Positions 11,057 through 40,635 of a stretch of 64,000 bases of DNA are shown here, one piece after another. Source of the DNA: Plumapathes pennacea (taxonomy: Eukaryota > Cnidaria > Anthozoa > Antipatharia > Myriopathidae); NCBI GenBank assembly GCA_964036295.1, contig OZ038462.1, positions 8,878,267 through 8,942,266 of the forward strand. Reading direction: 5' to 3'. Position numbers and translations under genes: made by a program. The notes beneath the pieces were generated by a model, which saw nothing but the letters and a program-made list of their open reading frames with translations, did no database searches and was not told where the DNA came from. Each line of letters starts with the position of its first letter. The first letter of the stretch is position 1.

Positions 11057-12831
11057 TTAATAAATCTCCAGACGTGTGTTTTGTTTCTTTAATTCCTGGA
11101 TAGCTGGCTCGTCCCTGAACTCCTCGCCCAATCTTAACCCTTGTAATGTTGTGTTGTGAGTCAGTGCGCGAGCCAGTGCAGGCAAACCTGTGAGGAGCGG
11201 GTTATTAAACAAATATAAATACTGCAATGTGTGGTTACTTACCATTGACTCGGCTAATGTTGTTACATCTTTTATGTTGTTCCCGTACAAATATAACCTC
11301 TTCAGCGGCCTGTTTTCTCTCAACATTGTACACACAATTCTATATTCTCCATCTGTCTCACTAATCTTACTGCCGCTCAGGTCCAGGTCCTCCCAAGTGC
11401 TACTGCTGACAACTGCCTCGTACATCGCTTCACCAAACTCAGCGTTAATATCAGCACATTCACGAACAACATCAAAAAGGTATTTTACATTATCTCTAGA
11501 ACCAGAGAGATGCCGTGTGAGAGATGACACTAAACCAACTAAAGACTGTTTTCCCGCCTCGGCTTTCTGACTCAGAAGGCCTAAAACAAACGAAATAAGT
11601 TGTTCGTATTTAACACGAGAAATTTTAACCTGACTAAGACAATCATCATTACCTGAGAGAAGCTGCTGGCATAGACTAACAGCGGCAAAATATTCTTGCA
11701 CTGTCTTATGCACAAATTGATAAGAGCAGCCGGGCCTCATTCTTGAAACGCTCGTTTCTTTGCAAAGGAATCCAAATTCGAGTATTATCTTCGTCGCGCG
11801 GCCTTCAGCGTGAAAGTCGTCTTCATCGAAGTGAAGTTGGTCGTTCGCTATACCCTTGAGAGCCAAACGACCGAGAGCATCAAGGTCTTCTTGGTGCTCC
11901 CCCACTGGGTCAACGGGAGGTTCTTCTTGTTTTCTCTTGTAGTATCTTGTCAAAACACAGCGTGTTAGCTCTTGGTACAGCTGGATCTTGCTGGAGGGAA
12001 GATTACCATCCGTTTCCTCGCAGACAAAACAAAGAAGAGACGTGGTGAGCGGGTTAGAGATGAGATCGCGCAGATATGCACCGTCTTCGCTTGACTTCTT
12101 CCCAATTTTGTCACGAAGATACTTGGCTCTTTGTTTTCCTTTCTTTCCATCCCCAAAGAATTTGTTGATGTAAGATTTCGCATCTCTGAATGTGAAACCA
12201 ACGATCTGGAAAAGGCTATCACAGTGCTTTCGTAACTGCGGGTCATTTCTGCTGGTCAGCAGAAACTTGCACTGCCAAGATTGAAGCTCTTTGTTAATCA
12301 GGAAAGAGATGTTGATGGCCTGTTTGAGTTCATCTAAGCCGTCCAACACAATCAGGACTTGAGACTGAGTGGTCTTTATGTAATCAAACAAAGCCGTCTT
12401 TAAATCTTCTGACGCATCTAATGGCAACAGTTGGTCGACAATGGAACACTTCAAGGTTTCGGCATTAATAGTATCAGCTGTTGACATTATATCTCTGCAT
12501 TTCAGTTTCAGGAGAATCTTAAAACTCGGAAATGCCTCTCCAATCTGGCCTTTAGACCAATCGGCTGCTATTTTCTGACAAAACACCGTTTTGCCAATTC
12601 CAGGTGCTCCCTCTACAAGGACAATTCTTGGCTCCTCACAATGTTCGTGTGGCTTGAAGACCTCATACATGTCACGAGTATTATCCTCTCGTTGGTTGGA
12701 TCGTTGGGTTTTTCTTCTGACCATTCGCACCTTGATGTAGATGGATTTTAAAGACAACTGCCAGTCTTCCAACCACGGGAAAGGAGTGACGTAAGTGTGT
12801 TCTCGTGTCTTGTACTCCCTCTTCAATATTG
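11057..12831 (-). CDS. NLR A exon 5: NACHT and LRR domains
   Basis: One large exon holds the whole ATPase and repeat region. The acceptor is CTGCAG|CAATATTG. Markers are 'VTPFPWLEDW' at the N-terminal edge, GAPGIGKT, 'LIVLDGLDEL', 'LLTSRNDPQLR' (sensor 1-like), 'LISNPLTTSLLC' and 'YQFVHKTVQEYFAA' (winged-helix end of NACHT). Then come LRRs with WEDLDLSGS, LKRLYLYGNN, LQYLYLFNN and LQGLRLG strands. The stop is TAA at 11,057. The single-exon NACHT is typical of invertebrate NLR expansions. Confidence 0.92.
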
Positions 12832-15800
12832 CTGCAGATGAACATAAATTAACTGCCTATTAGTAAAAAAGAAAAGCCGCAAGATCAGGTGCGCAAATAG
12901 TTTTATTTTACTTTAATAGTGTTTGTGCCCCTTTGGGGAGGGTTGTGAAAGGCCCCTAAGATGAGGTACTTATTATCTCTTCCCAGAAATACCCAGCGAG
13001 CAGAGCCTCTATACCACCAACCCCCCCCCCCCCCCCACCCCTCACTGCACTGTATATGTGTGTGTGTTTGGGGGGGGGGGGGGAAGAGGGGGCCTTTTTT
13101 TTTTTGCCTGTACTGTCTTCCTGTTGGTGTCCTAACATAACAGTCTGGCATTACCACTCACTTACATTCCAGTTCCCTCACAAGTGGGTCCTCAAGTGAT
13201 TTGGCTGGTTGGCTTGTGGAGGCAGCCTGATGACCTTAAAAAAAATTGCTGATTGCTTGAAAATGGCAATTTTCAGATCTTTCCATAACAGAATGCCAAT
13301 ATCCATCACATATAACCAGTCAATCTTTAAGTATAAAGGATCACACAAAATCAAAGCAGCCACACTGCTGAAAGCTCAGCTGTCCCTTTAAAAAAGAACT
13401 GTCAATTAAGATTGACAGATTTTGACGCACTTTTCAAAAACCTCCTAACATCCGTTTATGTTTCATGGTTGAAAGTCTCCATTTCCAAACAACCTCAACT
13501 TCCAAAACAAAACTTTTTAAAACACATCATTAAGAATTCTTCATGGGCAATCTCTGATAATCTGCATATACAGCTCAAAAAGCTGCTCAACATTAGGCAG
13601 CTGTATTCACAGGCTAAACTCTGAACCAGAGCAAGACTGCTCTAAATGCGGTAGCAAAGAAAAACGTAATTTATAACATGGATTTTTACGGTTTTCATGC
13701 ACAATAGATTTTGACAGCTTATCTTTGACACCTTAATTTTTTAATTAGAGGTGTAGTATGTACACTTTGGAACAACTGAGTTCTAGTGTAGTGCTGACAA
13801 AGGTATAGCCAGCATAGTTCTGGCATCAGTGTTCTGAGTTGAGTTGAGTTGAGTTGGTTGTGTTCCGAGTTGTTGTGGTCGTCGAGTGTATACAGTTCAG
13901 CCATGAGTTAATAAATACTGGATTTTACAGAGGCAACAATATTATTACTCCAGCCTGTGCTGCATCCAAGCTACATATTATGTAAATAGTATTACATGCA
14001 CTATTTTGACATTTAGTCTGAAATAGGGTCGAAAATTGTCAAATTTGGTCCAAAATAGGGTAAGGGTTTTCAGTCCTGGGCAGCACACTCTCACCCAAAA
14101 TTTTTGAGGAGTAGGCAGCCATTACAAATTAGTGGCTTTATGCAATATTGAAGATCAGAATCAATATTGCCCTATTTTCACATTGTTTAATTTCTTCCTT
14201 CTCAGGAACAGGAATCCTATCACTAACCTGAATCTATTTCTTCTGTTTTTCTTCTCTTTGCTTCAGGAGTCTCTGATGCCAAGTGAGTGGAAGACGGGCC
14301 TGTGCATGAAAATAGAATGTCAGAAAGAGAGCACCACACTGTTTTCACATAATACTGCATTAATAAAAAACATACAGTATGTACAATTTGGTAAAATCAG
14401 GTGTGGGCAGGGAACCTACACTGACAAGTGCTCAAGTAGCAATAAAAGTTTGGCAAAACTGAGTGTGGCAGACAGGAGTATGAAATGCTGATAAATACTC
14501 TGCTTGTTGGAAGTTACCAAAAACAGCCAACCAAACATAAGGGCATCCACAGTTTTTTTTTAATTAATAATAATCACACTTTTTCGTTCAAATCCTTTAG
14601 GACTTTTACATTTTTATGTTATTTTATTATAGAAAAACAGTATTTCCCATACAGTACCCTGTGCTTGTCCACAAAGTTCATCATCATCCTGCAAAGACAA
14701 CAAAATAAGTTATTACAGCTGTTTAACAAACCTCCAATGTACTCAAGGTATGAAAATATCAAACTATACCATGCTGTAGGTTAAAATAACACAGCATTGG
14801 AAAATTATGTTTGGCAAGGTAAAAAGCTCTGCTCTTTAAAAAATAGCAGTAAGGTCAGAAAAATCTACAAACTATAAGAAAGTTTCCATGAGAAATAAAT
14901 AATAATCAAGCAAGTTCAGAAATTATAGAAAAGTGCTATGGATTTGAATCTTGACAGTGAAATTACTTTTCTCCTTATCTGACCTTCTTTAGTACTTTCT
15001 TGTTAAACCTACACCAGTGCTTTAGGCTATGTTTACATTATACCAGATAACTTTCCATAGCATCACAAAAATGTACTGGATAGGCCTTCCATTTACATTG
15101 GATATGCTGTTTTTGAAGCAATTCTTGAAATGAAGCGCTGTTGCTCTACCCCTCTTCTGAAGTGGTTACCACCCACATCAGATAGTAAAACACTTCAATT
15201 GCATTGACTGATTGTGATAAAGCCACCCTGGACTGGCCTTGTGTTGAGGGATAGGCTTTTCACCCAAAGCCACTTCGAACCGGTCTTTTCGTGTTTCACT
15301 GTACCGGATAGGTTTTCACAATGACTCAAAATCCTATCTGGTATAGTGTAAACGTAGCCTTGGCAAACAAAGCAGAATAGCATATGCAAAAATAGGAATC
15401 TGTTAGGTTCATGTGTCTATTGCTACACAAAAGATGCAAAAATAGAGAGGTGCCTGCTTGTTCATACCCTGCAAGCAGTGGTTTCTCTGGATGGAAATAC
15501 TTTGGACATAGAAGAAATCATTCAACATCCAGGTTTATGCATGATTGATCATAGAACGACACTCAACCTTCTTTGCTGTCAAACACTCGCAAAAGTAAAA
15601 CTGTTTACGGCAATGATCACCAACCCAAACTAAGTTTCTATTATGATAAACATGTGAGAAAAGTAAAAAGATGACACTAAGCACTACTCACGGAGATGAA
15701 TCTCAACTAACCTGAGTTTCAGGCTTTTTTTCTGGGGAGATATGGTATAGGGATGAGGGAGAGAGGAAAAATGCGTAAATTTCATTTCTCTCCTCTCTCT

Positions 15801-16590
15801 CCCCAGTCTATTAGGCCGAGGGAAAAATTAGCTGAAAAATTATTAGCCTAATACTCAGGTTAAATCTCAACATGCAAGCTATTGAAGAAGCTATAAATAA
15901 CACTGAGAGTGAAATACATTGCAGTTGTTTATTGACATATTTCCTTCTCCTCTCTATTGCTCGAGGATGGTTGCTACAGCAAAAAGTTGTGAAGTCAAAG
16001 ACACGAAGGTTATACAGTTTACAAAGCCAACAAATGAGCGACACAGCTAATGATCAATCAGAACAGTTCTTATCTGAAGTTTGCCACTCATACTGTATAT
16101 CCTCACCCTTTTCATGAATTGAATTTACAGTGACAGGCTACAAGCACTATCAAAACATTTAAAACAAGCACATTTTCAAACCCAGAAAATTACAACTAAA
16201 ACCTTGCTCAGGAAAGCTGGAGTAATTGAGAATTAATTATGCATATAGTTGAAAATTGAATGTGTCAACTATATTGTAGTTTGTAATATAGAAAATGTAT
16301 AGTTGGCTTACCATTGATGGACAAATGCTGTTTGCGAGCTCGGCTTTACCAAGTTCCCTTAGAGCACCCGCCATTTTCCTGTACGAAGCACCTCTTTGCT
16401 TTCTCCAAGTTTTCAGCATTTGAAACGCCCGTCTTTCATGAGTGCGGTACAGCTGGGTGTTAATTTCGATGTTTGTTAAGTGGTCATCAGGAACCCCCAA
16501 TCCAGTGCCCAATGCATACCAGTATTCAGCTACCTCTACTGACCATTTATTGAAGTCTCTAAAGCTTGGAACAGCTTCTGCATTGCTCAT
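11057..16590 (-). CDS. NLR A: Death-NACHT-LRR receptor, five exons
   Basis: Predicted intracellular NOD-like receptor. Exons in transcript order: 16590-16312, 14688-14658, 14299-14228, 13234-13166, 12831-11057. All junctions have GT-AG sites and compatible phases, and the sum is 2,226 nt, giving a closed 741-codon frame plus stop. The ATG at 16,590 has an in-frame TGA 12 nt upstream. Domain order: Death (about residues 8-90), a K/R-rich linker with 'AKRRK', NACHT with Walker A GAPGIGKT (about 225-232) and Walker B 'VLIVLDGLDEL', then about four LRRs. By family analogy it would sense ligand through the LRRs, oligomerise by NACHT and signal through Death-domain contacts. No frame break is visible. 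The exon model is by inspection, not from transcripts; the ligand is unknown. Confidence 0.85.
13166..14688 (-). CDS. NLR A exons 2-4: microexon, linker, 23-residue exon
   Basis: Exon 2 (14688-14658, 31 nt) encodes an acidic DDDELCGQAQ stretch after the acceptor TTTGCAG. Exon 3 (14299-14228, 72 nt) encodes a single linker unit ending 'SETPEAKRRKTEEIDS'. Exon 4 (13234-13166, 69 nt) encodes 'HQAASTSQP...LVRELE', a likely helical lead into NACHT. The phases (0/1, 1/1, 1/1) close only if exon 4 starts at TTTAAG|GTCATC. Intervening DNA is intronic, with a GAGTT repeat at 13,838-13,857. Confidence 0.75.
15024..15360. mobile_element. MITE with about 26-bp terminal inverted repeats
   Basis: The left end AGGCTATGTTTACATTATA is mirrored at the right end (TATAGTGTAAACGTAGCCT). 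There is no open frame and no convincing target-site duplication. It lies in intron 1 of NLR A. Confidence 0.7.
15710..15860. mobile_element. Short MITE-like element
   Basis: The ends ACCTGAGTTTCAGGCT and AGCCTAATACTCAGGT are inverted repeats flanked by TA, which would suit a Tc1/mariner-type insertion. The inside carries purine and pyrimidine tracts (GAGAGAGG/CCTCTCTC). It lies in intron 1 of NLR A. Confidence 0.5.
16312..16590 (-). CDS. NLR A exon 1: Death domain
   Basis: 93 codons from ATG to the donor CAATG|GTAAGC. The Death fold is recognised from 'EYWYALGTGLGVPDDHL', 'IEINTQLYR' and 'MLKTWRKQRGASY', followed by 'LRELGKAELA'; the spacing fits the six-helix Death family. Phase 0 at the donor matches the microexon. 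It has no close counterpart in the duplicate, whose Death exon (46,482-46,732) is a distant relative. Confidence 0.85.
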
Positions 16591-19282
16591 TTTCTTTGAT
16601 CAATATATGATCACCTTGAAGAAAAAAAAAAAATATCATGTCTTGTTTTGTTCCTTTTCTTTTTGAAGGTCAGTCAAAAAGAACTGATAGTCACAAGTTA
16701 GGAAATGAGTAATAATTATCTACACATCAGTATTAAAGTCATCCCTCAAAACATTTTGAAATTTAGATTGCCTGAAACACCACATTTCTTGAATTTAAAT
16801 TGGCTGATGTTTTCCTCCTTTGCTGTATCATTCAACATTATTTTTCAAAATGTATATTCAGTTATTATTTAACTTATTCTCAAACAAATCAAAGACCAAT
16901 CATTTATTACGTCCCGAGGGAGGGGTAAAAAAATTTTTTTTTTGAGGAGGGGGGGGGGGGGGGGGGGGGGAGGGGTAATTTTTTATCTTCTTGGTGAAAT
17001 AGGGAGGTAAAATTTTCATACCATTACAAACTCTTAATGTGCAGACTGTTCATTGGAATTATAAGAAATACTGTACCTCAAAAATGAAGGAAATGGCATT
17101 TCAGGGAGACTAAATTTTCCGGGGAAGCATGCCCCCAGACCCCTAGAAGCTCAAGCCTTTCAGCTGTTCATACCCCCACACAATTCTGTAAAAACCTCGT
17201 GCCTTGGGATAAAAATATTTGACAGGTATAGAAGAATGTTGTAATCTTTACCAAGAATGATGGTACAGAAGTGGAGAAAGATAAGTTAGATTTGGGGGAC
17301 ATGTTGATTTTGGGCAAGAAGTCATCTTCATTATCCACAGGTGAGAGATGGATGTACATGTAAGTTAACTTTCTTAGACATACAGTAGCTGGGTAAACAG
17401 ATCAGTTTCTAAAACCTGTGACATGATTCATGTTTTAATAAACAGCACTAGACTCTTGTTCATGCTGGGAGGAGGGTATTTTTTTTTTAATGATTCAAAT
17501 TTCAGAGGGGGTTATTCTTTTGTTCACAATTTTTTGTAGGGGGTGGAAATTTCAACCTTAAGATCATTTAGAAAACCACCAATGCACCCCCTCCCCCCAT
17601 AATAATCTATCGGTCCCTAAGTCCAGACTAAATCTAAATTGTTAATCTACAAAGGTACCAGCCCATCACTGCAGACACTCTTTGTTTTCACATGTGAACA
17701 ATTCAGTTCAGTTAAAAGTCACGGAAAGAGCAGCTGAAAATATACTAAAAATATGATAATCACAGATATCCCCTTGCTCTGTAGTGGGTTTTCGGAAAGT
17801 GGGGTTCTACTTTATTTTCCACTCGGAGATCATTTAAAATTATTTTGCAAACCACAGTTGGTAGCAACGTCACCAGTCGGCCGGTAAAAAAATCTTCGTT
17901 GCACGGCAGACTGGGTTTAGTTCAGACAACATGCAGTCTGTAATTTTTAAGCTCGCGTTCAGCACAAAGTGCTGAAAAGTGAAGCTTCATGTGATTAGTC
18001 CAACTGGAATGTGTCCCATGTCCCAGTGCTGTCAACAATGGATTCCAAATATGGGAGTAATTCTGTTCCTAATTTGGGCAGTATCGATATTACAGACAAT
18101 GCAACAAAATTGAGAACACGATTGTTGAAGCAGTTTTTGTGGTGGCATTTTTAAGCCTCCCACCTTACTGCAGTTAAGACTGCATCAGTCAGTCAGTCCA
18201 TCATGCTGTGTCTACAATTGACTTTGAAATTTGAGCATCAGCGAATACGCATGAAGAAACAAAGAGACGGGAAGACGTTTTCTGGAGTTATTTTGATTGT
18301 TATCATTGTATTCCTTTATTGCCAGTAGATCTGTTGCACTTCAGAACCATTATCACACAGGTTTTGGTAAATTCTCGGTTGTTTGACAAGCGTAAGTCAA
18401 AGTTGAAATACCTGTGACCACTGACAGCCCTGAGCGACTTCAGCTTGTCAAAATATTTCTATCGTTTGATTATAGTTGCTTTGCTTCGCATAGTTTTCGC
18501 CAGTAATGAAAAATGCTGTAGAGAACTGGAAGAAGAATAATTCGAAAATGAATTTGACCAAAACCTCAAGTAATGTCAACAAGTTATCAGATTTCAATTA
18601 AATTTATTCGACTTGAAACTCAGACAAAAGAAGAAAGGCGTGTTTTCTTTAAGCACATATTTAGTTTGAATGCAGCCCAGGCTGGAGTATCATGGCCTCT
18701 GATGAATATGTAGATGTTGAACATAAGCTGTAAATGACAAAAGTAATGAAGTCACGGATAGACATTTTTCAGTGCGACTCCGGAAGGTCTCCTTTCGGTT
18801 CAAAGCTTTGGCATTAGGTGAAGGATTTTAAATTCTCTCAATTCGAGTGTCTAAGTTTATAGTTTTCACCCTCTGCCGCCTTGTAAATGAGGGTTTTTAA
18901 AACTAAGACTAAATCGAATACGCGGTTCAGCAAAAGTGGAGGCCTGCGGAAACAGATGTGAACTTCCACATACCTAAAATTGAGCAATTTTTACAATGTG
19001 TCCTTGAGCCAGTTCTATTAAATACCCACCCCCGCAAAAGTACTTTTTACAAATTCGCGAGCTTACAGCTGTATTGCTGCTTTGATTGTAGACACTAGCT
19101 GAACTCCAAAATTCCCTGAGACAACATTTACATGCAACTACAGAATACTCCTGGAGCTCAAAAGCCAAGAAAAGCGCAACTAGAAACGTGACTTGATCAG
19201 TTTTGCACAGTCAGCAAAGTCGATCTTGGACACCAAAATTGTTATGAATTTCAAGAAAAGCCACGATTTATCCAGCCAACGC
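16591..19282. other. Sequence upstream of NLR A, no gene seen
   Basis: 16,850-17,700 matches 51,105-52,725 of the second copy. It contains a G run at 16,949-16,970. From about 17,700 to 19,282 nothing is recognisable; copy 2 has only about 80 bases between the matching flanks, so this block arrived with, or beside, the Gypsy element. Confidence 0.5.
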
Positions 19283-20543
19283 TTAATTTACTTTCCTCCA
19301 AGGTCCAGACGGTAATTCAGTCATCTTGAGTGGCTCGCGATGTGTTACCGGCGTGGTGGCTTGACATGCTGTGCATGTTGACACAAACTTTTCACACTGT
19401 GAGTCCATCTTTGGGAACCACACGTGCGCCCTCAACAATTGCTTGGTACGAACTTGGCCCTGGTGGCCTTCGTGCGCAATTTCTATCATCTTCTGTCTGA
19501 GTTTGGCGGGTACTACAATTCTATTTCCCCGCAGTATTATTCCGTCAACCAAGGTGAGTTCGGGGAAAACTTGCTTGTAGATTTGAATATCCGCCAGTTT
19601 TGTATCCAGCCAGCCTTGTCGAATGCACTTTTGTAGTCTCTGCAGTGTCTGGTCTTCATTAGTGGCTCTTTGCACTTGGTCCCTAGTGACTGCCTTAGGT
19701 GGTCGTCACGTTTCTCGAATCTTCTTTTGGTTCCAATTGATGATACCCTTTGCACATGTCGAGGTGTGAGAACACGGTGGAACTGTTTAACTCGTTGATT
19801 ACATCATCAATCGTGGGGTGCTGAATGTTCCTCCGAGGTATTGCTTGATTGGCCACACGCATGTCTACATTTAGACGAATCTGGTCTTTGTTTTTCTTGG
19901 GCGTGACTACAGGGGGTGACACCCATCCCGTAGGTTCCTTGACTTTTTCGATGATGTCTTGGTCCAGAAGATGTTGTATTTCCTCCTCCATTTTCTGTCG
20001 TATGCTGTAGGGTTGGCGTCTTGGTGGTTGTGCGATTGGCTTGAAACTGGGGTCAACCTTTAGGTCCACTTGTATTCCTTTTACTTTGCCAATGCCTTCA
20101 AACCTGTCTCCATATTCTTCTAGTAGTTTGTCTGCCTTGGTTCGTTCTGGCGTTTCTTTGTCTTCTGTTGCGATCGCATTGGTGATTTTGATCATTCCAA
20201 GATCTGTGCCGTCCGCGTAGCTTAACAGAGGTGGTGTCTGTGTATCTCCTTTGATTATTTGCCACGTCACCACCTTCATCCTTGTTTTGGACTCTGTCAG
20301 CGCTTCAAAACTCCCAAGTACCGGTAGGAGTTTTGCCTCTGTGGTCAAACCATAAGGTTTAATTCGGCAATTTGTTTTTTTGACTGTTACGTTTTTTTCA
20401 AGTCCAGATCGCCTGAACGTCTCCTCATCCATTGCGCTGACGGTAGCACCGCTGTCCGGTAATACCGTAACGTTTACGCCGCTGATCGAAATTTTCATCA
20501 ACGGTCTGTTGTTCGAAGGTCCCACGGGGCTAACTGTCTCCAA
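19283..20543 (-). pseudogene. Gypsy protease, RT start and integrase zinc finger
   Basis: The protease active site is DSGAT in 'VTVLPDSGATVSAM'. RT begins with 'LLDQDIIEKVKEPTGWVSP' and 'RLNVDMRVANQAI', and stops just after 'FSHLDMCKGYHQLE'. A deletion then joins it, out of frame, to an integrase HHCC segment ('HEGHQGQVRTKQLLRAHVWF', 'CTACQATTP'). All catalytic parts downstream of the first RT Asp are gone. Confidence 0.85.
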
Positions 20544-20631
20544 AGTGCACGTGGACTCTACGTCGCTGCTGTCAGATGACGCGTACGTGTCAGGTTTTTG
20601 CGTGCCTCCGTGTGTGACTTCTCTCGTGGCT

Positions 20632-21378: not shown

Positions 21379-21410
21379 TGTGGGTTTGTTTGCATCCTCG
21401 TCGCCAATTT

Positions 21411-21560
21411 AATGTCGAAGGTTATATTTCGTGAACGCACGATTAACACACACTCCTTCGGTTCTAATATCACACTCTCATCTAATATATTCAGTGAATT
21501 ATTATCTAGTCTAACAGCCCGTGTCCCGGATCTGGGTTCCAGTTCCTCTGGTCATGACAG
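21411..21560 (-). repeat. 5' LTR of the Gypsy element
   Basis: It lies between the host junction and the primer-site motif TGGCGACGAGGATGC, which is typical of Mag-like Gypsy elements. The end is approximate, because no 3' LTR is available for comparison. Confidence 0.6.
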
Positions 21561-28205: not shown

Positions 28206-28542
28206 CCGCTGGTCAATTTTTGGGTCTAAAAATTTGGTCGTTTTTGGGGGATTAAAAAATCTGGCCTCCATTGCACTCGCACCTCCCGGTCACTAATCAA
28301 CTGACCTGGAGTACCCCTCCCTTCCCTGGAATTAAACCTACCGACTTTCTAAGTAGACTTTTTTCTTTAACTAGTTTGTTCGAAGGATTTATTGAGCTAG
28401 CAAGGAGAAAAATCTTGTTTCCTGTCTGCAGCGCTTGCAACGTGAAAAGCGTTTTCTTGACGGACACAGATGTATTGTTTTAGCTTTTTTTCTGTCCCAA
28501 CAAACAAAGACTATTTTACAAAATCTGACAGCTGTACTGGGA
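28206..28542. other. Junction region before copy 2
   Basis: 28,215-28,345 repeats 24,270-24,420, and 28,465-28,545 repeats 27,432-27,510. No gene. This is where the upstream copy ends and the second copy begins. Confidence 0.5.
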
Positions 28543-29600
28543 GTGCCAGTACAAGCATAATTCAGTTGATGACCGAGCATGTACTGGTGCATTCCAAAGA
28601 TGAAGGCGGCCTTACAAAACACATATGATTTTCTTTAGTCTATCCTTTGACCGACACTTTAAAATACCAAAAAAAAAAACATTTTTTATACTTTTTTTAA
28701 TACCTGGGGCTGGTAAAGGGGCCCCTTCCGGGCGGGAACTCGCCATGCAGCCGATCATAGGGAGTACCCCCTTCCCCCTCCGGCCCACAATGCTCATGGC
28801 ACAAGAGACAGCAGCAGAAATGGCGTTTCTTTCAAATTTCTCACAGTCACTATAAACGCATTTTATTTGTTAAAGTCCCCGTGATCTTGTCGTATTTCGA
28901 GAACTTAGATACCGATTTGCAAGCGGGATAGGAAAGTGTTTTATGCAAGAAGTGATAGGGCCAAGCGATAACCTTAAGGAGATCATAACTAAAGCATCGG
29001 AACGTTTGTATATGATCAGGGTGCATGCTAATGCGTGCTGGGCATTCCACCACTCCATCGATCTTGTTAACATCTACATCGCACTTGTGAGAGCCATCCT
29101 CGAGTATTGTTTTGTTACCTGGTCAAACAGCCTACCTGGATACCTCGAGGACAAGATCAAAATGGTTCAGAAGCGTGCAGTGCGTATCATTTTCCCTGAA
29201 ACTCACTATCGTGACGCCACATTGCGCTCTTAATGCCAGTAATATTCTGCACAACACTAATAGTGACTACTATTTACCAGTGTCCTACAGACAAGATTAG
29301 ACTGTTTCTTTTTTTCTCTGCTATGGCCTTTAAACTGACTGATGTCAATCGACTGACCCCAGAGTTTAGAGCATGAACCATAAGTAGTTTGTAAATTCAA
29401 GTTTTAGGTACTATTTTTATTATTGTACACAGTTATAATTCCTACTATTTGTAACCCAGCCCCTTTTATCCCCTATAATTACCTCTTATGTAACTCCTAT
29501 TGTAATTCACCTACACGGGTGCGATTCACTGATATTAAACTTTCATTATTTTCATCCTTGTTATTATTATCATTGTTATCATTATCATTATAATTTTCGG
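28543..29600 (+). mobile_element. 3' end of a CR1/L2-like LINE (copy 2)
   Basis: Nearly identical to 1-1,055, with the same truncated RT tail frame at 28,943-29,233 and the same ATT/ATC tail. A duplicate by descent of the segment, not a new insertion. Confidence 0.75.
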
Positions 29601-30736
29601 TCAGAATAGTGACCGGAATGAAATAAAGTGGAGATGAGGGAGGAGGGAAGGGACTTATCTAAATATATATACAAAAAAATCCACCAGACATGATTTGTCA
29701 GCAGTTTTTATAACTTTGGCAACTTTTACATTGGAATTCATTCTATTCTTTGATTGACAGTTTACAGGTTTTGCTTGACAGGCCATAATGTTCTGCGAGA
29801 ACTAAAGGGCGCGAGGAAATTAGAAAATGAAGTTTGTTTGATAATCAGCCGGGCCGGTTGAAAGCTTGATTTGGCGTCATCCACAGCAACGACGATAGCA
29901 CGAGAGAAGAAAAGAACTAAGTCATTTTGAGTGCTAAATATGATCTGTTTCTGACCGTTTTGTAATTTTTGCTAAAATCTAATTGCATTCAGTACATGCA
30001 AGATTGCAGCGCTCGACTAATGGATTGAAGGTACGCAACTGACATACGCCTATAATAGGGCCCTGTAATTAGGGGTATCCATGTCCCCCGTCTGAATTTC
30101 AAAACCAGGTATGTCGCAATTTCAAAACGTCCCTGTGTCGTTGGTCGGAATTTCGAGCAGTGACGTCATTCACGCGAAAATCTGAATTATCCTTTTGACA
30201 TTTGTTAGGAACTCCCGAAAAAAATCAACCCTGAAGGTAAAGGTTTATCACACTCTGTTAAACACTCTACATTTTCTTAAGCCATCCAATCATTTACAGT
30301 TGGGGCGGATCTAGCATTTTGTGAGAGAGGGTTCGAGCACCGACACACTGAGGGGGAAAATTTTGACGACTGCGAGGAGACTAGTTTGAACGTTTACATT
30401 TGTTCAAGGGTCCTCAAATTGCAAGAAATGGTATTTCAGCGAATCTAGATTTCAAAATTTTGCGGGGGAGTGTACTTTCTTGATTTGTAATAAAAAAAAA
30501 GCTGTCGTGATTTTTAATACATCTCTGTCGTGTTTTGTAACAATAAAAGCTGTCGTGATTTGTAATAAATATTGACGTGATTTGTAATAACAATCTATCA
30601 ATGCACTATATGAGTGTCTTGGAACAAGATTGGTGCCTTATTGTACGACCACCTGTGACTTATCCAGCCACGTAATAGTGGGGAAATTAAGGGCCTATAT
30701 TCGAGTAGGGGTTTATTTGGAAGGGTGGGGGGTGGG
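29601..30736. other. Noncoding flank, copy 2
   Basis: Duplicate of 1,056-2,193 with few differences, including a 17-base insertion near 29,977 and a shorter G run before the LTR. No gene. Confidence 0.5.
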
Positions 30737-30966
30737 TGACCGGAACTGTGAGGGTATCACCCTTCCCCCCCCCCCCCCCCTAGTTTTGTTTTGTTAGAGT
30801 GATCATGTGGTGATCATGCGGTGATCAGGGGGTGATCGGGCGGTGATTAGGAGATTAGGAGGAGAGAGGAGAGACAACGCGAGAAGTGTTTCATCTACTA
30901 TTGATTCTTGATTAAAGACTGAATCAGAAGCTGTGACTTTATTGTGTCCCCTACAACTTCGGGATA
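30737..30966 (+). repeat. 5' LTR of BEL/Pao copy 2
   Basis: Same boundaries as 2,194-2,406; longer because of an expanded C run and an extra GGTGAT unit near 30,830-30,855. Confidence 0.85.
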
Positions 30967-31035
30967 TAGTGGTGCCGTGACCAGGATCTGCGGGGAGGAA
31001 AGAGCGAAGTTTTTACTCCAACGTGAACGAGACTT

Positions 31036-33693
31036 GTGCCGCAAAGAACAGACATGGGAGATACAGAGCCCGATGAATCCAACCCAGATGCGCCGGTCAT
31101 TTCTGAGGAAGAACGAGACCTGGAGAAGAAAATCAAGAAGGGAATTGACAAGCTAAGGTTCTACTTAGAAGAAGCTGAGGAGCTGTTAGAGAGTGGCGAT
31201 TACAGCGAAATGAAACTTACGTGCAAGCGAACCGACGAAATTCAAGATCGCCTAAATGACCTTGTGTCAACATTGCAAGAACTTAAAATTGACCTCGGAA
31301 ATTCGACGCAGAGAGCTGTCAGACAGTGGAAGAAAGACCTGAAGGAAACATACACGCCACTGTTGGAGGTAAAGGACAGACTTAGTAAGGCCCTAGATGA
31401 AAGAGAGCGGAGTATAAAGAAAGAGGCCGAGGAAGAGAAGCTGATAGCGAAGTTTGAGAAGGAAGAGCAATTTAGGCGTGAGATCCAGCAGCGGGAGATA
31501 GAGCTTTGGGAGGAAAAAATGAGAGCGGAGTTGAGAGCGATAGAGAAGAGAATCGAAATGGAGAAAACCGCAAAAGCCGCCCGTACGAAGCTGCCAGAAC
31601 TGAAGATAACCCCCTTCGACGGTACCTCAGCCGACTGGATCAGGTTTGAGATTATGTTTACAGCACAAATACACAACAAGCCAATGTCTGACGAAGAGAA
31701 ATTTGGATATCTGCTAGAGCTGGTGAAACCCAAGGTAAGAGATCATTTGCTAATTTGAAGCCAGGCGCGACGGGATACAAAACAGCGTGGGGCAGGCTCA
31801 AAACTGAGTACGGGCAGAGTAAAACAGTTATCGCCGCACACATGGAGGAGATAATAAACTTGCCAGTGATCAGAGGATCGAACTACGATAAGATGTGCGA
31901 ATTCTATGAGAAGTTGAGCAAGAATTTTGACGCACTGCAGACTCTGGGGGAGGGAGAGATGCTTAAGGGTTTTGTCTTGTCCATTCTGAACAAGCTTCCC
32001 CAGGTCAAACCCGATTTGGTGAGAACTGATGAGGGGTGGGAAGATTGGAATATGGAGAATCTAATCGTTTCCATCCAAAAATGGCTCAAACGTAACAAAC
32101 CAGAAGACAACCACAAGGATCAAACGGATCCGAAGAAAAGGAAGCGACACCTGTTTAGTCAGAGGGGAGCATCGCCATCAAACCCCAGGGAAAGAGGGCC
32201 GCATTGCATATTTTGCGAACAGAAACACTGGGGGGACTCGTGTTTGACGTACGACACCGTTGCGAAGCGCAGACAGTTCTTTGCAGAGAAACGGCTATGT
32301 TTTAATTGCGGCCGCGCGGGACATCGGGAGAACAAATGCCACGGCAGGGGTTGTTACAAGTGCAAGAGCAGACACCACACCAGCCTATGCGACAAACCAC
32401 AAGAGAGCGAAACGGGAAACCACAACGCAGTGTTAAATGGCTACACGCCTTCGATCGAGGAAAAGTCACTACTCGTCACTAGTCACCACGCTCTTGTACC
32501 ACTGAAGATCCAGGGAGTCAAGTTCTGGGCGTACTTGGATACAGGGTCAGGGAGGAACTTTATCTCTAAAGAGGCAGTCAACAGATTAAAACTGAAACCG
32601 GTGCGACACGAGACGCGCCATATTGTAAAGGCCGATTTTCACTAGTGAAGTAAGCGGAGACGGAGAAGGAGACGGAGACGTAAGACACTTGCGCGTGTGA
32701 AAATTAGCGAACGGAGATGAACGTAACCGAAGTAAGCGGAGACGGAGACGCAAGAAAAAGAAAACCTTCCGTTCTGCTTCCTTCTCCGCTTCCGTCTCCG
32801 TTCGCTAATTTTCACACGCGCGCAACTGTCTTACGTCTCCGTCTCCTTCTCCGTCTCCGCTTACTTCACTAGTGAAAATCGGCCTTAACGGTCAACGGAA
32901 CAAAGAAACAGTCGATGCCAATTTTTGACGTGACCATCGACTCGGTTGACAGTCAAGCAAGTGAGAAAGTAGAGATCACCGGAAGCAAACTGGCGGAGTT
33001 TACAACCATCAGGAGACCCACCCTGGCAGAACTGAGGCCAAATATCAACACATGGAGGGAAAGCTGTTCTACAGAACCGCAAGTGAAGAGTATCCAATCC
33101 ACGTCATATTAGGAGACGCGACCTACTGTAAAATCAGAACTGAACAAGTGTACAAAGGCCAACCGGAAGACCCCATCGTCGAGGGTACCACATTTGGCTG
33201 GGTCGTCCACGGTGGAAAAGAGTACTCGGACAGCAAGCGCACGCACGTGAGGGAAACCAACAACCACGAGAGATTGTATTCGCTTGACGTGTTGGGAGTA
33301 GAGGACCGAGGGGAGGACGATCAGCTAGACGTGTGTACGGAGTTTCAAGAGAACATCACCAGGAGAAATGACGGCAGATATGAGGTGGGCGTGCCATGGA
33401 TCCCAGGCGCCGAGCTCTCAAACACAAATGAGGAGCCAAGCAGAAGACGCCTTTACAACGTTGAACGGAAACTGAATAGAAACGACGAGCTGAAAGAGGA
33501 GTATGAGAAGATAGTGCGCGAGCAGCTCGACGAGGGCATCATCGAAGAAGCACCAGAGGAGCCCACAGGTGACCGGGTGTTTTATATGCCCCACAAACCT
33601 GTAGTGAGAGAGAGCGCAGCGACAACCAAGGTGAGAATGGTGTTTGACGCGAATGCGAAGCCACACCCGCTTGCTAACAGTGTGAATGAATGA
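31036..33693 (+). pseudogene. BEL/Pao gag-protease region, copy 2
   Basis: Same domains as 2,476-4,860. A one-base loss near 31,744 breaks gag between 'KVRD' and 'LKPGA'. The stop at copy-1 position 3,586 is a sense codon here, so gag to protease is continuous (31,755-32,645) until the MITE interrupts the protease after 'RHIV'. Coding resumes at about 32,915. It ends at the same GAAT-repeat frameshift as copy 1. Confidence 0.85.
32629..32885. mobile_element. PIF/Harbinger MITE inside BEL copy 2
   Basis: The ends AGGCCGATTTTCACTAGTG are inverted repeats that continue nearly perfectly for about 90 bp with GGAGACGGAGA repeats. It is flanked by TAA on both sides (32,626-32,628 and 32,886-32,888). 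Copy 1 has the empty site with a single TAA (about 4,067), proving insertion after the duplication. Family from the 3-bp TAA target site and similarity to 22,882-23,506. Confidence 0.88.
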
Positions 33694-35479
33694 ATGTATG
33701 CATACCGGCCCGCCGCTACAACCGCTACTGTGGGATGTCATGGCGAGGGCGCGGATGTCCACCCACTTACTACTTGCAGATCTTCAAAAGGCCTTCTTAC
33801 AGATCGCCATCAAGGAGCAGGACAGGGATGCGTTTCGATTCCTATTCAATGTCAATGACAAGGAAGAACACTTGCGCTTCGCTCGAGTACCCTTTGGAAC
33901 AGAAGCAAGCCCGTTCATGCTGGGAGCCACACTACGACATCACTTCAATCAACAGCCACCAGAGCTTGAAGACACTGTCCAAGCGCTAAGGGAAAACACG
34001 TATGTAGATAACCTCATGAAAACCGGAAGTGACGTCGCAGAACTGAAGAGGTTCAAACAGGAAGCGACTGAGGTCCTCGAAAGTGCAAGGTTCCCAGTGC
34101 ATAAGTGGGAGTCCAACGTTCCAGAGTTAGACAGTGAGGCCAATCCTAGCAAGATGCTCGGACACGTGTGGGACAAAAGAAAGGATACGCTGGAGATTCA
34201 AGCGCAGACGAACGAGGACACGCCAGTGAAAAAACGATCAATACTCAGTCAACTCAGCAGTGTCTATGATCCGCTCGGCGTAATCTCACCGACCATGGTA
34301 GAGGGAAAGCGCATTTACAGAGAGGCGTGCGAGGAGAAAGTAGGCTGGAATACCGAAGTGAGCAGTGCTGTAACGAGAGATTAGCTGAAGTGGAGCAGTC
34401 AGCTTAGGAACATCAGAATGCCGAGGAGCATAGCCAGAAATATCAGCAAGATGAAGGGCGTGCAACTCCATGTTTTCGCAGATGCTAGTAACACAGCGTA
34501 TTCAGCTGCGACCATTGCTGTAGTCGAACACTCGACAGGTGTTGTGAAGGGGTTGCTGACGTCTAAGTCTAGAATTTCGAAACGTAACACATCAATGGCA
34601 AGACTAGAGCTGGTGGGCGGGCAGATGGCAGCAAACATGGCAAAGAACCTGCTAGCAGCGCTGAGACGGTGGCCCATCACTTCTGTGAACGTGTGGATGG
34701 ACAGCATGGTAGCACTATACTGGATCTGCAGCCCAGGAAAAGCATGGAAGGTGTTTGTGTCAAACCGAGTAAGGAAGATTGCTGAAATCACACAAGAGAC
34801 AGGGATCGAGTGGAAGTATTGTCCCACAGATAAGAATTTAGCAGACTTGGGAAGCCGCGGCGCTTCACTGGAGAAGATGCAGAGAGGAGAGTGGTTTGAA
34901 GGACCAGAGTGGTTGCTGAATAAGGATGAGTGGCCAGAACAACCGAAACTGGAGAAGACCAAGAGCGTTAGCGAAGAGCACAAACAGGTAAAAGAGGAGG
35001 CGCTGTACTCAGTAACGAAAGAGCCTGACGAGTGGGACGCACTTCTGGATAGAAGCAAACTCTGGAGAACCCTCCGAGTGACCGCGTGGGTTCTAAGGTT
35101 CATGCATAATACATTGGCCAAGAAACGCAAAGCAAAGAAGAGAACTGGACCGCTGACGACGGAGGAGATAGGGAGTGTGAATGTTGGAAAAGTCGTGCTA
35201 GTCGTCGGGGATGAGAAGAACCGAGGAGAATGGAAGAAAGGGCGTGTCTTGAGACACATCAGAGGAAGAGGTGGTGTGGTGAGGGGAGTCATACTCCTAC
35301 ACAAGTGTCACCATATGGAGAGACCACTATCTCTTGTGTGTTCACTGGAGATCAAGGTAGCTGTAGTTGCTGATAACAGACCAACAGCGGAGGTGCAGGA
35401 GTTGAGACGGAGCGACAGACGTGCAGCGCAAGACGCCAGACAGAAGGTTCAGCTGATACTACAGGAGGAAGACAAGTGA
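33686..35479 (+). pseudogene. BEL/Pao RT-RNase H region, copy 2
   Basis: RT runs open from 33,686 to a TAG at 34,382 (tryptophan in copy 1). RNase H continues from 34,418 ('[12 protein letters not shown]', '[15 protein letters not shown]', '[10 protein letters not shown]'). After 'TEEIGS' a deletion joins directly to the integrase C-terminus ('[10 protein letters not shown]'), removing the zinc finger and all DDE residues. Confidence 0.85.
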
Positions 35480-35656
35480 GGGCGGATGTTGCATGATGAC
35501 AACGATAGTGAGGCTAATTGAAAAGCAAAGGAGTCACGATACTGCGTGCACGAACTGTGTAGTTTTTGTTAGTTTAAGGAACACTGAAAATTGAACTTTC
35601 CAGAAAGACGTTATTGTTATATAGTAAAAGTAAATAACTTTAATTTTAGTGGTGTG

Positions 35657-35882
35657 TGGCCGGAACTGTGAGGGTACCACCCTTCCTCCTCCCCCCCCCC
35701 CCCCTAGTTTTGTTTTGTTAGAGTGATCACGTGGTGATCATGCGGTGATCAGGGGGTGATCGGGCGGTGATCAGGAGGAGAGAGGAGAGACAACGCGAGA
35801 AGTGTTTCATCTACTATTGATTCTTGATTAAAGACTGAATCAGAAGCTGTGACTTCATTGTGTCCCCTACAACTTCGGGATA
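35657..35882 (+). repeat. 3' LTR of BEL/Pao copy 2
   Basis: Matches the 5' LTR; the first bases are TGGCCGG. It contains five GGTGATC-type units. Confidence 0.85.
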
Positions 35883-37699
35883 AAGGGGTGGCATATTCGA
35901 GGATATACCGTATTTTCAATTTATCTTAACAACCACATTTTCACCTGACTGTGTACGTTTCTACAGTAGTTCCACCAATTGCAAATCAATCATCCTGTGA
36001 ATACACTAATAACTATGGCATGCTGTGCGTGTGTCAACTGGGAAGACTTGTCCCACTCCTCCCCCCGACTCACTGAGACGAGCACAATCAACAAATATCA
36101 AACTCCATTTAATAACAATTACAAGAATGATTTACAGTTGCTCTCTGCTCAGGCAAACAAAGCTTTATATTTCATCACCTACAACGGGTTCAGCATTTGA
36201 GCAAAGTTATTACAGAAGACTGTATTTTTGCCGCTGATACATGAATATACGTTATTTATATAATCTGAATAAATACAGTAATAATTATTTCTATACAATG
36301 CTATAATATAATACACTAACTACGTGAAACAGATCTCCCAGTGCTTTTATCATTTCCTTTCTTGAGTGTAAACATAGTTATTACTATTCTTGTTGTGGAG
36401 GTAAGCCTACGTCCACAAAAATGAGTTTTTAAATACCTGCATCATTTTTCAAAGCTACTTGTCCACACAAATTCGTTTTCATTTCAAGACACATGTTTTC
36501 GAAAGTCTGCCCATTGAGAACCAATTTTCGACAAATCGTTTTAGTGTCGACGAAAAAAAAAAAAAAAGAAAAGAAAAAAAAAAGACGTGTTTTCAACTGA
36601 AAGCTTATTGGTGTGGGTGTGGCTGAAGTCCCAAATTCTGTTTTAAATTGCACGCGCACGAGTTCAAATCATACAATACTTTTAATAGAGTTGGCCCTGA
36701 GTCCGCAAGGCGAGGAAACAGATAACAAACACTTTACAAGACCATTCCCACAAGGTAGCAACTTTAAATTATTGTAAACATGATGACAAAATTAAAAGGA
36801 AAATAGCAAGACAAAAATGAGACAAAGGTCAATTAAGAAGAAAATAGATATTTCTAATAAAATGTTGTATGAAGTAATCTCTCCTTGGTGCTGTAGTCTG
36901 AGTAAGAGCTGCAACAGGAGAATAGTCTTTGGTAACCACAAACACCAAGCAACAAATAGTCTCACAATACGTAAAAATAATCATGAAACATACAAACATC
37001 ATACTGTAAACAGACGCACACACACAGGCAAACATGCTGCCAAAAAACAAAGTCCTTCACACTTTACTATACCAGGCCAGAAAACATACCACATACAATT
37101 TTCATGCTAATTTTGACCGAAGTAGGTAATTTCATCAACAAGAATTTGACATTCTATTAGAAGCGATGGTGTAAAAAAAGAATGTAAAACAATATGAAAG
37201 GCCTGGCACAGCAGCAGTGTGTAAGGTGATGAAAGCGATGCACTTCAAAACTTAACCATTTGAAGTCTGAAGGAGTGGGGATAGAGAGAGAAAAACCACA
37301 GCAGTAATTCTTTGGCTGTTCGGAAATCAAATTAAATTGAAAACGTTTTGTGGCAGAAAATACATTGCCTGAAATCTTGTGCATTTCCCATTCCTTCATC
37401 TATAAACATCAAATGGTTAAAGTATAACAACAAATGACCTGCCTAAGGCTGAACTAATCCGGCAATTTATCTCCACTAAAAACACTTCTGATCTACTCTA
37501 CAGTAACCACACATTGCAAGTTGACACAAACAAACAAGCGGTTGGTTCTTACACTTCACATGAAATTCCTTTCAACTGTCATGATCAAGGCAGGCATATT
37601 TCTGTCAGATAAACGAGTACTATTGGAATTACTGCCACTGTAAAGAAACCATTTCGATGCAATGAGGACCTCGGAGGAAAATTAAAGGAATTTTCTCAT
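35883..37699. other. Noncoding stretch, duplicate of 8,095-9,889
   Basis: No gene is recognised. A longer A/G-rich tract at 36,551-36,582 is the main difference from copy 1. Confidence 0.5.
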
Positions 37700-37850
37700 T
37701 GGTGCGTTTTCATCCACTGACAAATATTGCAGGTTTCTCATTGGTTGAGAGTTTGCGCTCCAAACGAATCCAGCTAATCAGAAGCGAGGGATTTCGATCC
37801 GCACTCGAGTAAAAGCTGAAGAGCTGCAATATGAACCGCATTTATAAAAG
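37700..37850 (+). promoter_or_regulatory. Promoter-like block, copy 2
   Basis: Same two ATTGG boxes and TTTATAAAAG (37,841-37,850) as copy 1, and the same downstream donor (GT at 38,375). Preserved but uncharacterised. Confidence 0.35.
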
Positions 37851-38839
37851 TGGACTGACAAAATACGCCAGAAAAATGCGACGAAAGACACGGAAAACAC
37901 TTTCTGGAAATTCGTAAAAACGACGAGGACTGTTTGAAATCGCAATTACGCTACAGGATTTGAACAGGAGTGTTGGATGAAGTTTGAAGTACGGACAGCC
38001 GTTATTCAACGAAAAATTGTACTACAAGTCCTTGGTATCAACGGCCGGCGAGATATTCTTATGTAGTATTTCAACCCAGCTGGAGGATAAGCTGGGACCT
38101 TACTTGGACTGTGAACATATTTACATGGATTTGATACTCGAACTTGTGCCTCGGACTGAATAATTGTACAAAATATTTGTACAAACGCTGCTAATTTCAC
38201 TTCAGTAACGGATCTCTACAAGATTGAAACTTGAACTCGGTTTATTTTGTTTACTGTGAGCTGTGCTTCGATTTGCTATCGATAAAACTTCTGTAGAAGT
38301 TACTGCGGGCTATTTGTGGAAAGAAAAGAATGTGGTTTTCCCGCGCGGAACAACAAATACTTCACAAGTTTACGGTAAGAAATCACAAATAACTTGTTCT
38401 GTTTGATTTTTTTCTGCTTAAATATTATACTCTTGTGCTCTTCATCAATGCTGTAATGACCTTCAAGTATATTTTGCTTAATAAATCAGTATTTTCTCTA
38501 TCAAATGGCTTTGTGTTTGAATTTCTCTTCATAACTTGCCACAGAACGCGGCGAGTCTTGGCGGGTTTTTCGCTTTCTTGTTGAATTTTCTTGCTTTTAA
38601 ATCGTTTTGTGAATGAAAACGCACTTGTTTATCACACAAAATTCCCCTAAACACTGCTAAGCCGTGTGGTAATGTTTCCTGACAGAAATAAACTCGTTCA
38701 GTTGCCTTTTTGATAAATTTCTGGCCAAACAATTTACAAATCGAAGCCAAACTTGTTCTGTTCAAAGAGGAAATGTTTTGCTTTCAGTGAATTAATTGTG
38801 AGAAGTGAAACAAACGCTTGTCTGTTGTCTCATTACATT

Positions 38840-40635
38840 TTAATATACTAATGACCTTATCTCCAGACGTGTGTTTTGTTTCTTTAATTCCTGGATAGCT
38901 GGCTCGGCTATGAACTCCTCGCCCAACTCTAACACTTGTAATGTTGTGTTGTGAGTCAGTGCGCGAGCCAGTGCAGGCAAACCTGTGAGGATCGGGTTAC
39001 CCCACAAACGTAAATACTGCAATGTGTGGTTACTAACCATTGACTCGGCTAATGTTGTTACATCTTCTATGTTGTTATTCCTCAAATCTAACCTCTTCAG
39101 CGGCCTGTTTTCTTTCAACATTCTACACGCAATTCTATATTCTACATCTGTCTCACTAATCTTACTGTGGTACAGTTCCAGTTTCTCCCAAGTGCTACTG
39201 CTGACCACTGCCTCGTACATCGCTTCACCAAACTCAGTGTTGATATCAGCACACTCGCGAAGAACATTAGTAACGTACCTCAAGCAAATTCCGTCAAAGA
39301 TATTTGTAGACCAGTGCACAAGAGATAACGCTAAATGCACACAAACCTGTTTTCCCGCCTCGTTTTTTTGACTCAGCAGGCCAAGAACGAAAAACAGAAC
39401 TTGTTTGTACTTACGACGTGCGGACGGTATATTCTGAGTAAGATAACCAAGACAATTGCTGTTACCTGAGAGAAGCTGCTCGCACAAACTAACAGCGGCA
39501 AAATATTCCTGCACTGTCTTATGCACAAATTGATAAGAACAGCGAGGCCTGATTCTCGAAGCGCTTGTTTCTTTAGAAAGGAATCCAAAGTCAAGTACTT
39601 TCGTCGCGCGGCCCTCAGCGTGAAAGTCGTTTTCATGGAAGTGAAGTTGGTCGTTCGCTATGCCCTTGAGAGCCAAACGACCAAGAGCAGCTAGGTCTTC
39701 TTCATGTGTTACCACTGGGTCCACGGGAGGCTCTTGATCTTGTTTCTTGTAGTATCTTGCCAACACACAGCGTGTTAGCTCTTGGTAAAGCTGAATTTTG
39801 CTCGATGGAAGTTTACCATCCGTTTCATCACAGACAAAACAAAGAAGAGACGTGGTGAGCGGATTGGAAACGAGATCACGAAGAAGTTTGCTATTTTCCC
39901 TCGACTTGTCGCCAATTGTCTCAATTAGGTACTTAGCTTTCTCCTTCCCGTTCTCTCCAAAGAATTTGGTGATGTAAGACTTCGCATCTTTGATCTTGAA
40001 ACCAACGATCTGGAAAAGGCTATCACAGTTCTTTCTCAACTGAGGATCATTTCTGCTGGTCAGCAGAAACTTACACTGCCAGGGGCGAAGCTCCTTCTCT
40101 ATAAGGGAGGAGAGATCGATGGTCTGTTTGAGTTCATCTAAGCCGTCCAACACAAGCAGGACTTCAGACTGGGTGGTCTTTATGTAATCAAACAAGGCCG
40201 TCTTTAACTCTTCTGGCGCGTCCGGCAGCAGTTGATCGACAATAGAGTCTTTCAAGGTTTCGACATTAACAGTACCAGTGGTACTGTTAATAAGATCTCT
40301 GCATTTCAGTTTCAGGAGAAGCCTAAACCTCGGAAAGGCCTCTCCAATCTGACCTTCGGACCAATCGGCGGCTACTTTCTGACAAAACACAGTTTTGCCA
40401 ATTCCAGGTGCTCCTTCTACAAGGACAATTCTTGGCTCTTCACAATGTTCGTGTGGTTGGAAGATCTCGTACATATGACGAATATCACCTTTTAGTTGGT
40501 TGGATCGCTCGGTATCTCTTGTCGTCATCCGCACCTTGATGAAGATGGTTTTCAATGACAACTGCCAGTCTTTTAACCACGGGAAAGGAGTGACGTAAGT
40601 ATGTTTTCGTGTCTTGTACTTCCGTTTCAGCATTG
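38840..40635 (-). CDS. NLR B NACHT-LRR exon
   Basis: 597-codon counterpart of 11,057-12,831, about three quarters identical at protein level by eye. The NACHT motifs and 'YQFVHKTVQEYFAA' are conserved. Differences cluster in the helical middle (about residues 340-480 of the exon) and at LRR strand positions (WEKLELYHS, LKRLDLRNNN, LQYLRLWGN, LQVLELG). The C-terminus is four residues longer (ends 'LEIRSLVY'). Confidence 0.92.

Follow-up and report, generated by a model that had tools for sequence, protein, structure and literature searches.

Two genes, copy A and copy B, in a 64,000-nucleotide stretch of the genome of the antipatharian Plumapathes pennacea (bases 8,878,267–8,942,266 of contig C1, in a genome of 290 Mb and 24 contigs; hereafter the window) encode proteins that join a NACHT domain to leucine-rich repeats (LRRs). 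Judged from sequence, they are likely nucleotide-binding, leucine-rich repeat receptors (NLRs), probably cytosolic and equipped with an N-terminal Death domain, in which the LRR β-sheet forms a variable recognition surface under diversifying selection.

An initial annotation of the window held that the two copies differ mainly at the x residues of four recognisable LxxLxLxxN strands, and the LRR peptides that it quoted from both copies are all present where it placed them. We scored positions x2, x3, x5, x7 and x8 of the four strands, giving 20 x codons per gene. Between copies A and B, 12 of the 20 x codons carry nonsynonymous (N) differences and none a synonymous (S) one, compared with 9N and 2S among the remaining 92 LRR codons. 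Thus, the replacements do concentrate on x positions. The annotation was incomplete in two respects: a fifth, truncated strand that follows the four LRRs had been overlooked, and the copies also diverge strongly outside the LRR, with 37N and 13S among 100 codons of the HD2-like region and 78N and 66S among 370 codons of the NACHT body.

The downstream (3′) flank of the pair (positions 7421–10420) is 96–100% identical in fifteen 200-nt bins and 92–98% in the next three, whereas identity falls to 89–90% in the two bins that cover most of the LRR, to 68% and 84% in two HD2 bins and to 80–86% in five bins inside the NACHT part. The strand codons therefore diverge far faster than the 3′ flank. Because the NACHT and HD2 parts are less identical than the flank, their history must differ, and be older, in the two copies, and the divergence of HD2 and of the silent sites in the NACHT part, far above that of the flanks, is read as exchange with other paralogs.

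A six-frame search of the genome uncovered 78 matching places. Close paralogs comprise six genes on C1 (8.85–9.23 Mb; in one of them, L006, the frame breaks ahead of the LRR) and eight on contig C6, whereas 14 gene-sized places on C11 and 16 on C3 (3.0–5.1 Mb) have lower identity. Among the close paralogs, x positions vary from gene to gene within nearly constant surroundings. Codon likelihoods were computed with our own implementation of an MG94-type model, rather than with PAML or HyPhy, using fixed site classes. The C6 fit used six of the eight genes, excluding the more distant L008 and L009, and the C1 fit used six genes, with L006 entering only through its C-terminal piece and absent from the body fit; the single genes L007, L010 and L020 were aligned and left out of the fits. 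Models of positive selection were applied to C1 and C6 only. For C11 (10 of the 14 places used) and C3 (3 of 16 genes read, the others as pattern matches only), the evidence consists of diversity counts, plus a body fit with a single ratio of nonsynonymous to synonymous rates (dN/dS, ω) for C11.

A higher ω at x codons than in the LRR framework had been set beforehand as the test of selection, and the estimates are 7.38 versus 1.25 in C6 and 4.93 versus 0.47 in C1. HD2 gave 1.34 and 1.77 in these two clades, and the NACHT body 0.40 (C6), 0.34 (C1) and 0.38 (C11; 10 genes, 348 codons). A single ω for all classes is rejected, with twice the log-likelihood difference (2ΔlnL) reaching 80.2 in C6 and 140.1 in C1. 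A FUBAR-type site-wise test over both clades, with a posterior threshold of >0.9, identified 13 of 20 x codons, 3 of 96 framework codons, 8 of 106 HD2 codons and 0 of 371 body codons as selected, so the NACHT domain lacks the scatter seen at x. Across the four repeats, x3 and x8 pass in 4/4, x7 in 3/4, x5 in 2/4 and x2 in 0/4. The three selected framework sites, residues 601, 603 and 605 of the extended open reading frame (ORF; 591, 593 and 595 of the 597-residue protein), all lie in the fifth, truncated strand. The codon models on the C1 and C6 alignments thus support the proposed diversifying selection on strand positions.

We also compared three C6 and three C1 pairs without a tree, using every gene once. 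In these six pairs the x codons show 73N and 0S among 120, and the framework 74N and 22S among 553; in five pairs (L002–L006 omitted, as it lacks those parts), HD2 shows 108N and 35S of 506 and the body 249N and 212S of 1,836. When the x mask is shifted by 1–10 codons, it captures only 6–43N rather than 73N, and none of 20,000 random draws of 20 LRR codons reaches 73N. The concentration at x is therefore far beyond chance. Neutral divergence or relaxed constraint at surface residues would suit the expected solvent exposure of x positions and the near-1 ω of the C6 framework. However, both clades reject ω = 1 at x (2ΔlnL 76.3 for C6 and 63.7 for C1), the 73N/0S count arose although synonymous changes make up roughly 22% of the mutational opportunity at x, and the x divergence of the window pair far exceeds that of the downstream DNA. 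At the level of the codon and pair tests this explanation is refuted, and we accord it next to no probability.

The selected sites were mapped on a structure model built from an alignment of the two window proteins only. Because the mean predicted local distance difference test (pLDDT) score of the full-length model is just 45, the strand test was restricted to residues from about 481 on. Strands are predicted at 484–488, 514–518, 540–544, 567–571 and 591–595, where 10-residue blocks score a pLDDT of 74–90 from residue 501 on (strands 2–5) and the block containing strand 1 scores 69. Each of the 16 LRR sites under selection maps to a strand or to the residue immediately after it (together 30 of 116 residues; hypergeometric P = 8 × 10−12), and 12 of them lie strictly on strands (25 residues; P = 8 × 10−7). 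By analogy with the LRR fold of relatives (5irm and ribonuclease inhibitor), rather than from measured coordinates, this strand face would be concave and exposed. Two inter-helix loops, in a part of the model with low confidence, contain or border seven of the eight HD2 sites.

The same contrast between scaffold and strand codons recurs in two distant NLR subfamilies, C11 and C3, and here it extends to near-identical DNA repeat units within a gene. C11 genes carry 78-bp LRR units, of which 28 internal ones were read from 8 of 10 genes (L029 and L058 have none); the unit pattern retained 47 of 49 units and misses those that have a one-codon gap or an altered strand. At most scaffold codons no variation is seen, not even at silent bases, whereas unit pairs differ in 56% of cases at x2, 76% at x3, 75% at x5 and 88% at x8, with x7 nearly fixed (14%); unit codon 24 shows 14% N. 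Nonsynonymous and synonymous diversity (πN/πS) are 0.343/0.061 at x and 0.019/0.032 in the scaffold. The 28 units hold 27 distinct x combinations on 13 scaffolds, and 12 units have one scaffold in common. Linkage between x codons within units was not significant for any of five pairs (P = 0.07–0.65), an independence that fits recombination or recurrent mutation alike and does not separate them. Internal unit number ranges from 0 to 6 among the 10 paralogs read, as counted by pattern in one genome. Searched across the genome, a strict version of the unit pattern hits 54 places, every one of them on the plus strand of C6 or C11; a reversed control hits 2 + 1.

C3 genes have 165-bp units of two LRRs each, in which inspection of three genes reveals the same frozen scaffold and variable x codons; their unit pattern has 39 genome matches, 38 on C3 and 1 on C10, with none in the control. 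Thus, a few surface codons per repeat are under diversifying selection, as indicated by codon models in C1 and C6, by πN/πS in C11 and by inspection in C3. In the window genes, the 4.5 LRRs differ from one another and no near-identical internal units are present. Three x combinations follow one another in identical order in two C3 genes, near 4494174 and 4887681, which are the product either of a very recent duplication or of a duplication in the assembly; single unit types are shared among several other C3 genes. An NLR on C12 (L021:940–1500, reverse-complemented locus) contains a long in-frame poly-serine/proline stretch upstream of NACHT, which is probably an intronic simple repeat.

A targeted hypermutation process (resembling a diversity-generating retroelement (DGR), driven by a deaminase or specific to codon positions) could alter x codons while selection only purges bad scaffolds. 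Such a process might account for the third bases of many x codons, which are constant (NNG, NNT or NNC) within units and often across families, and for the 41 of 73 changed x codons that differ at two or three bases. However, a model with only a faster rate at x is worse than one with raised ω by 2ΔlnL of 17.7 (C6) and 41.5 (C1), and the synonymous rate at x, when left free, is low (0.18 and 0.19; 2ΔlnL 2.2 and 3.5, not significant). Moreover, the x changes number 46/54/23 at codon positions 1/2/3, or shares of 0.37/0.44/0.19, where nonsynonymous selection predicts 0.40/0.45/0.15. Local hypermutation at x is ruled out by the likelihood comparison and these shares, and in its general form we regard the idea as highly improbable. 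Adenine-specific, DGR-like mutagenesis was also rejected, given that third-base A at five C11 unit codons changed 1 time in 136. We see no need for a special mutator.

The genes are mosaic in structure. For L013 and L014, which lie 840 kb from each other, identity is 99–100% along roughly the first 2.6 kb of the stretch compared, where 365 of 365 NACHT-body codons agree, and 92–93% from there through HD2 and the LRR. L014 and L011 show the reverse pattern, with 34–87% identity over the first 2.2 kb and 90–100% in 200-nt bins 3′ of it. L011 and L015 show only two silent changes across the 192 codons of HD2 and framework, yet 10 of 20 x codons are changed, compared with 10 of those 192 (Fisher P = 5 × 10−7). 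From such mosaic and homogenized genes we infer gene conversion combined with diversifying selection. Gene conversion from diverged paralogs that brings in differences without selection would also produce clearly mosaic genes, but the differences cluster on x codons within the same 27 nt, and the framework codons interleaved with them mostly retain their silent bases; we consider this alternative extremely unlikely.

The choice of strand leucine codons (CTG in LRR1, mostly TTA or TTG in LRR2 and LRR3) is kept in lineages down to 34% identity with copy A. Among 16 genes with 34–78% identity to copy A, six strand leucine columns (L4 and L6 of LRR1–3) have a mean codon homozygosity of about 0.71, versus 0.37 in 38 body leucine columns; as regards a nucleotide-level constraint on strand leucine codons, four of the body columns are equally conserved.

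If the model of diversifying selection on a recognition surface is correct, duplication, unequal exchange and gene conversion would copy entire receptors, and exchange, to judge from the mosaic and homogenized sequences, would swap NACHT halves with HD2–LRR halves while keeping the LRR scaffold nearly identical. Strong diversifying selection, as the codon tests show, fixes changes at x3, x5, x7 and x8 and acts more weakly around two HD2 loops. The concave surface exposed to non-self ligands, microbial or otherwise, could in this way differ from paralog to paralog, and ligand binding might release the NACHT module for oligomerization and signalling through the Death domain. More tentatively, the system may be a germline repertoire generator, in which active ectopic exchange fixes the scaffold DNA of three deep NLR subfamilies, including most silent bases, while independent x variants reassort continuously into new surfaces; such an animal LRR counterpart of fungal receptors might differ between individuals, although we hold this extended version to be a possibility less probable than not.

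Several observations weigh against selection for recognition by the LRR strands. The LRR is not the sole selected part, given the 8 of 106 selected HD2 codons, and 7 of 20 x codons, including all four x2 codons, fail the threshold. The C6 framework, with its ω of 1.25, is not under purifying selection. C-terminal trees are weakly supported (bootstrap 36–72), which is an expected effect of recombination. In C11, 38% of unit pairs differ nonsynonymously at the codon after the asparagine, and the first codon shows 20% N and 30% S, with a silent AGC/AGT alternation. The full-length structure model is poor, the Pfam cut-offs are not reached by the Death match of copy B or by the LRR and HD2 matches of either copy, and the 4.5 LRRs of the window genes offer a small surface.

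Related designs are known from other receptors. Lamprey variable lymphocyte receptors consist of LRR modules whose variable strand residues form the recognition surface, but they are somatically assembled and secreted or surface-exposed, whereas the genes described here are intact germline NACHT genes. The highly variable NLRs of plants are NB-ARC receptors with plant-type LRRs, and their variability was measured among accessions of one species rather than among paralogs of one genome. As in the present genes, highly variable residues of those plant LRRs, for example in RPP13, lie in many cases in the concave-side β-sheet, and most are positively selected in RPP13 (PMC8226289; the papers cited by identifier are described from excerpts).

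A close parallel comes from fungal NLRs with high internal conservation, such as Podospora HNWD proteins (het-d, het-e and hnwd) and relatives with ANK or TPR repeats. These are also NACHT receptors of the STAND class with near-identical DNA repeats within and between genes and few selected codons on the interaction surface (PMC1805685, PMC4986451). The WD40 repeats of Podospora evolve in concert, and positive selection acts on four surface codons in each (Paoletti et al. 2007, PMC1805685), and the pattern was extended to ANK and TPR repeats by Dyrka et al. 2014, whose excerpted text reports no LRRs in fungal NLRs (PMC4986451). The fungal repeats are thus WD40, ANK or TPR, whereas here LRRs are used, in an animal host. 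Repeat-induced point mutation was proposed as an extra mutation supply in fungi, whereas no mutational signature was found here.

Among animals, the zebrafish NLR-B30.2 genes likewise form a large family in which gene conversion shaped the NACHT and C-terminal parts differently and the presumed recognition part is selected, but the zebrafish LRRs are described as ‘not particularly variable’ and selection falls on B30.2, in contrast to the selected LRRs found here (PMC4852459). Pfam detected no B30.2 domain in the two window ORFs, exons further downstream lying outside the search. Bird NLRC5, NOD1, NLRC3 and NLRP3 show positive selection that includes LRR codons; however, only 5 of 39 selected LRR codons of bird NLRC5 lie in the LxxLxLxxN segment, and NACHT is selected too (PMC8105094). 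In the present genes, by contrast, every selected LRR site belongs to the strand segment, and no codon of the NACHT body is selected. NACHT–LRR NLRs occur in all nine anthozoans surveyed and a sponge, with no medusozoan example in the excerpted survey (PMC8260672), and sponge NLRs have 2–30 LRR repeats (PMC12909245). Those surveys give counts and architectures (PMC8260672, PMC12909245), rather than the strand-level selection described here, and in one sea-anemone study the transmembrane NLRs tested had gene-wide dN/dS below 1 (PMC5094078). In searches of the open literature, no listed title or abstract opening described an animal LRR case of this design, with subscription papers and preprints outside that scope.

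Thus, the genes would be the animal equivalent, built on LRRs, of the hypervariable NLRs of fungi and plants, with a role in recognition suggested by their sequences. The selection might instead prevent cross-assembly between paralogs or match self partners, through autoinhibition, dimer or cage contacts, or allorecognition like that of fungal HET-D/E. Selected sites in the HD2 region adjoining the LRR would agree with such a role, as would the allorecognition function of fungal NLRs of the same design (PMC1805685), whereas 4.5 LRRs would offer few intersubunit contacts. We judge this alternative unlikely, although the present data do not separate it from pathogen recognition. Animal NLRs are usually described as sensors of fairly constant microbial or danger signals, but here the LRR strand face, with ω of 5–7 at predicted strand positions, shows the behaviour of a plant or fungal NLR recognition surface. 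The long-standing question of how receptor diversity arises in animals that lack adaptive immunity thereby becomes directly testable, as does whether homogenized repeats combined with surface selection are a general NLR solution.

The domain content agrees with NLR identity (Table 1). The NACHT domains of both copies contain the Walker A sequence GAPGIGKT, and Pfam LRR_4 and LRR_6 matches occur in both ORFs, all under the cut-off. Relatives of the window proteins in the PDB are NLRP1, NLRP3 and NLRP6, LRR34, ribonuclease inhibitor and 5irm, which we take to be NOD2, an NLR. ORFs with Death-domain matches lie upstream on the same strand, 3.4 kb from copy A and 5.8 kb from copy B, and the likely architecture is therefore Death–NACHT–HD2–LRR. 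The window genes are NACHT–LRR paralogs, probably of the Death–NACHT–LRR type. They lie one in each half of a tandem duplication that spans 28 kb.

Table 1 Features of the NLR genes and the duplication in the window (positions in window coordinates)
Feature	Position	Strand	Description
NLR copy A	11057..12826	-	NACHT + HD2 + 4.5 LRRs; single exon-like ORF of 589 aa, start TTG; upstream exons expected
NACHT domain, copy A	12149..12628	-	Pfam E 4.2e-20; Walker A 12587-12610
HD2-like region, copy A	11396..11689	-	Pfam NLRC4_HD2 match under cut-off; second, weaker cluster of selected sites
LRR1 strand, copy A	11369..11395	-	WEDLDLSGS
LRR2 strand, copy A	11279..11305	-	LKRLYLYGN
LRR3 strand, copy A	11201..11227	-	LQYLYLFNN
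LRR4 strand, copy A	11120..11146	-	LQGLRLGEE
Truncated fifth strand, copy A	11060..11071	-	LEIY; C-terminal end of protein
Death-domain ORF upstream of copy A	16240..16599	-	Pfam E 4.8e-7; likely N-terminal exon of copy A
NLR copy B	38840..40633	-	597 aa; 77% identity to copy A
NACHT domain, copy B	39953..40432	-	Pfam E 7.4e-22, residues 68-227; Walker A 40391-40414
HD2-like region, copy B	39191..39502	-	Pfam match under cut-off
LRR1 strand, copy B	39164..39190	-	WEKLELYHS
LRR2 strand, copy B	39074..39100	-	LKRLDLRNN
LRR3 strand, copy B	38996..39022	-	LQYLRLWGN
LRR4 strand, copy B	38915..38941	-	LQVLELGEE
Truncated fifth strand, copy B	38843..38866	-	LEIRSLVY; C-terminal end of protein; 3 selected sites
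Death-domain-like ORF upstream of copy B	46398..46739	-	Pfam E 0.0043, under cut-off; likely N-terminal exon
Tandem segmental duplication, first half	1..13007	+	
Tandem segmental duplication, second half	28543..40821	+	Three main aligned pieces, 90-98% identity

A retroelement, presumably BEL/Pao-like, occupies the equivalent site in both duplication halves (2187–8102 and 30729–35890, plus strand). The first copy has DUF1759, aspartyl protease, RVT_1 and DUF5641 matches, and the terminal repeats of the two copies are 87.7% and 91.9% identical. A retroelement remnant on the minus strand (19286–21378) retains an integrase zinc-binding domain, along with weak matches to aspartyl protease and PNMA. 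A 66-bp minisatellite of roughly 10 copies lies at 55093–55764, and a TGATGG hexamer repeated about 218 times (57530–58839) is the source of overlapping long ORFs on both strands, the plus-strand one having no Pfam match. Elsewhere in the assembly, contig C24 is the 17.7-kb mitochondrial genome, whose features point to a hexacoral cnidarian: cox1 is interrupted and is read with TGA as tryptophan.

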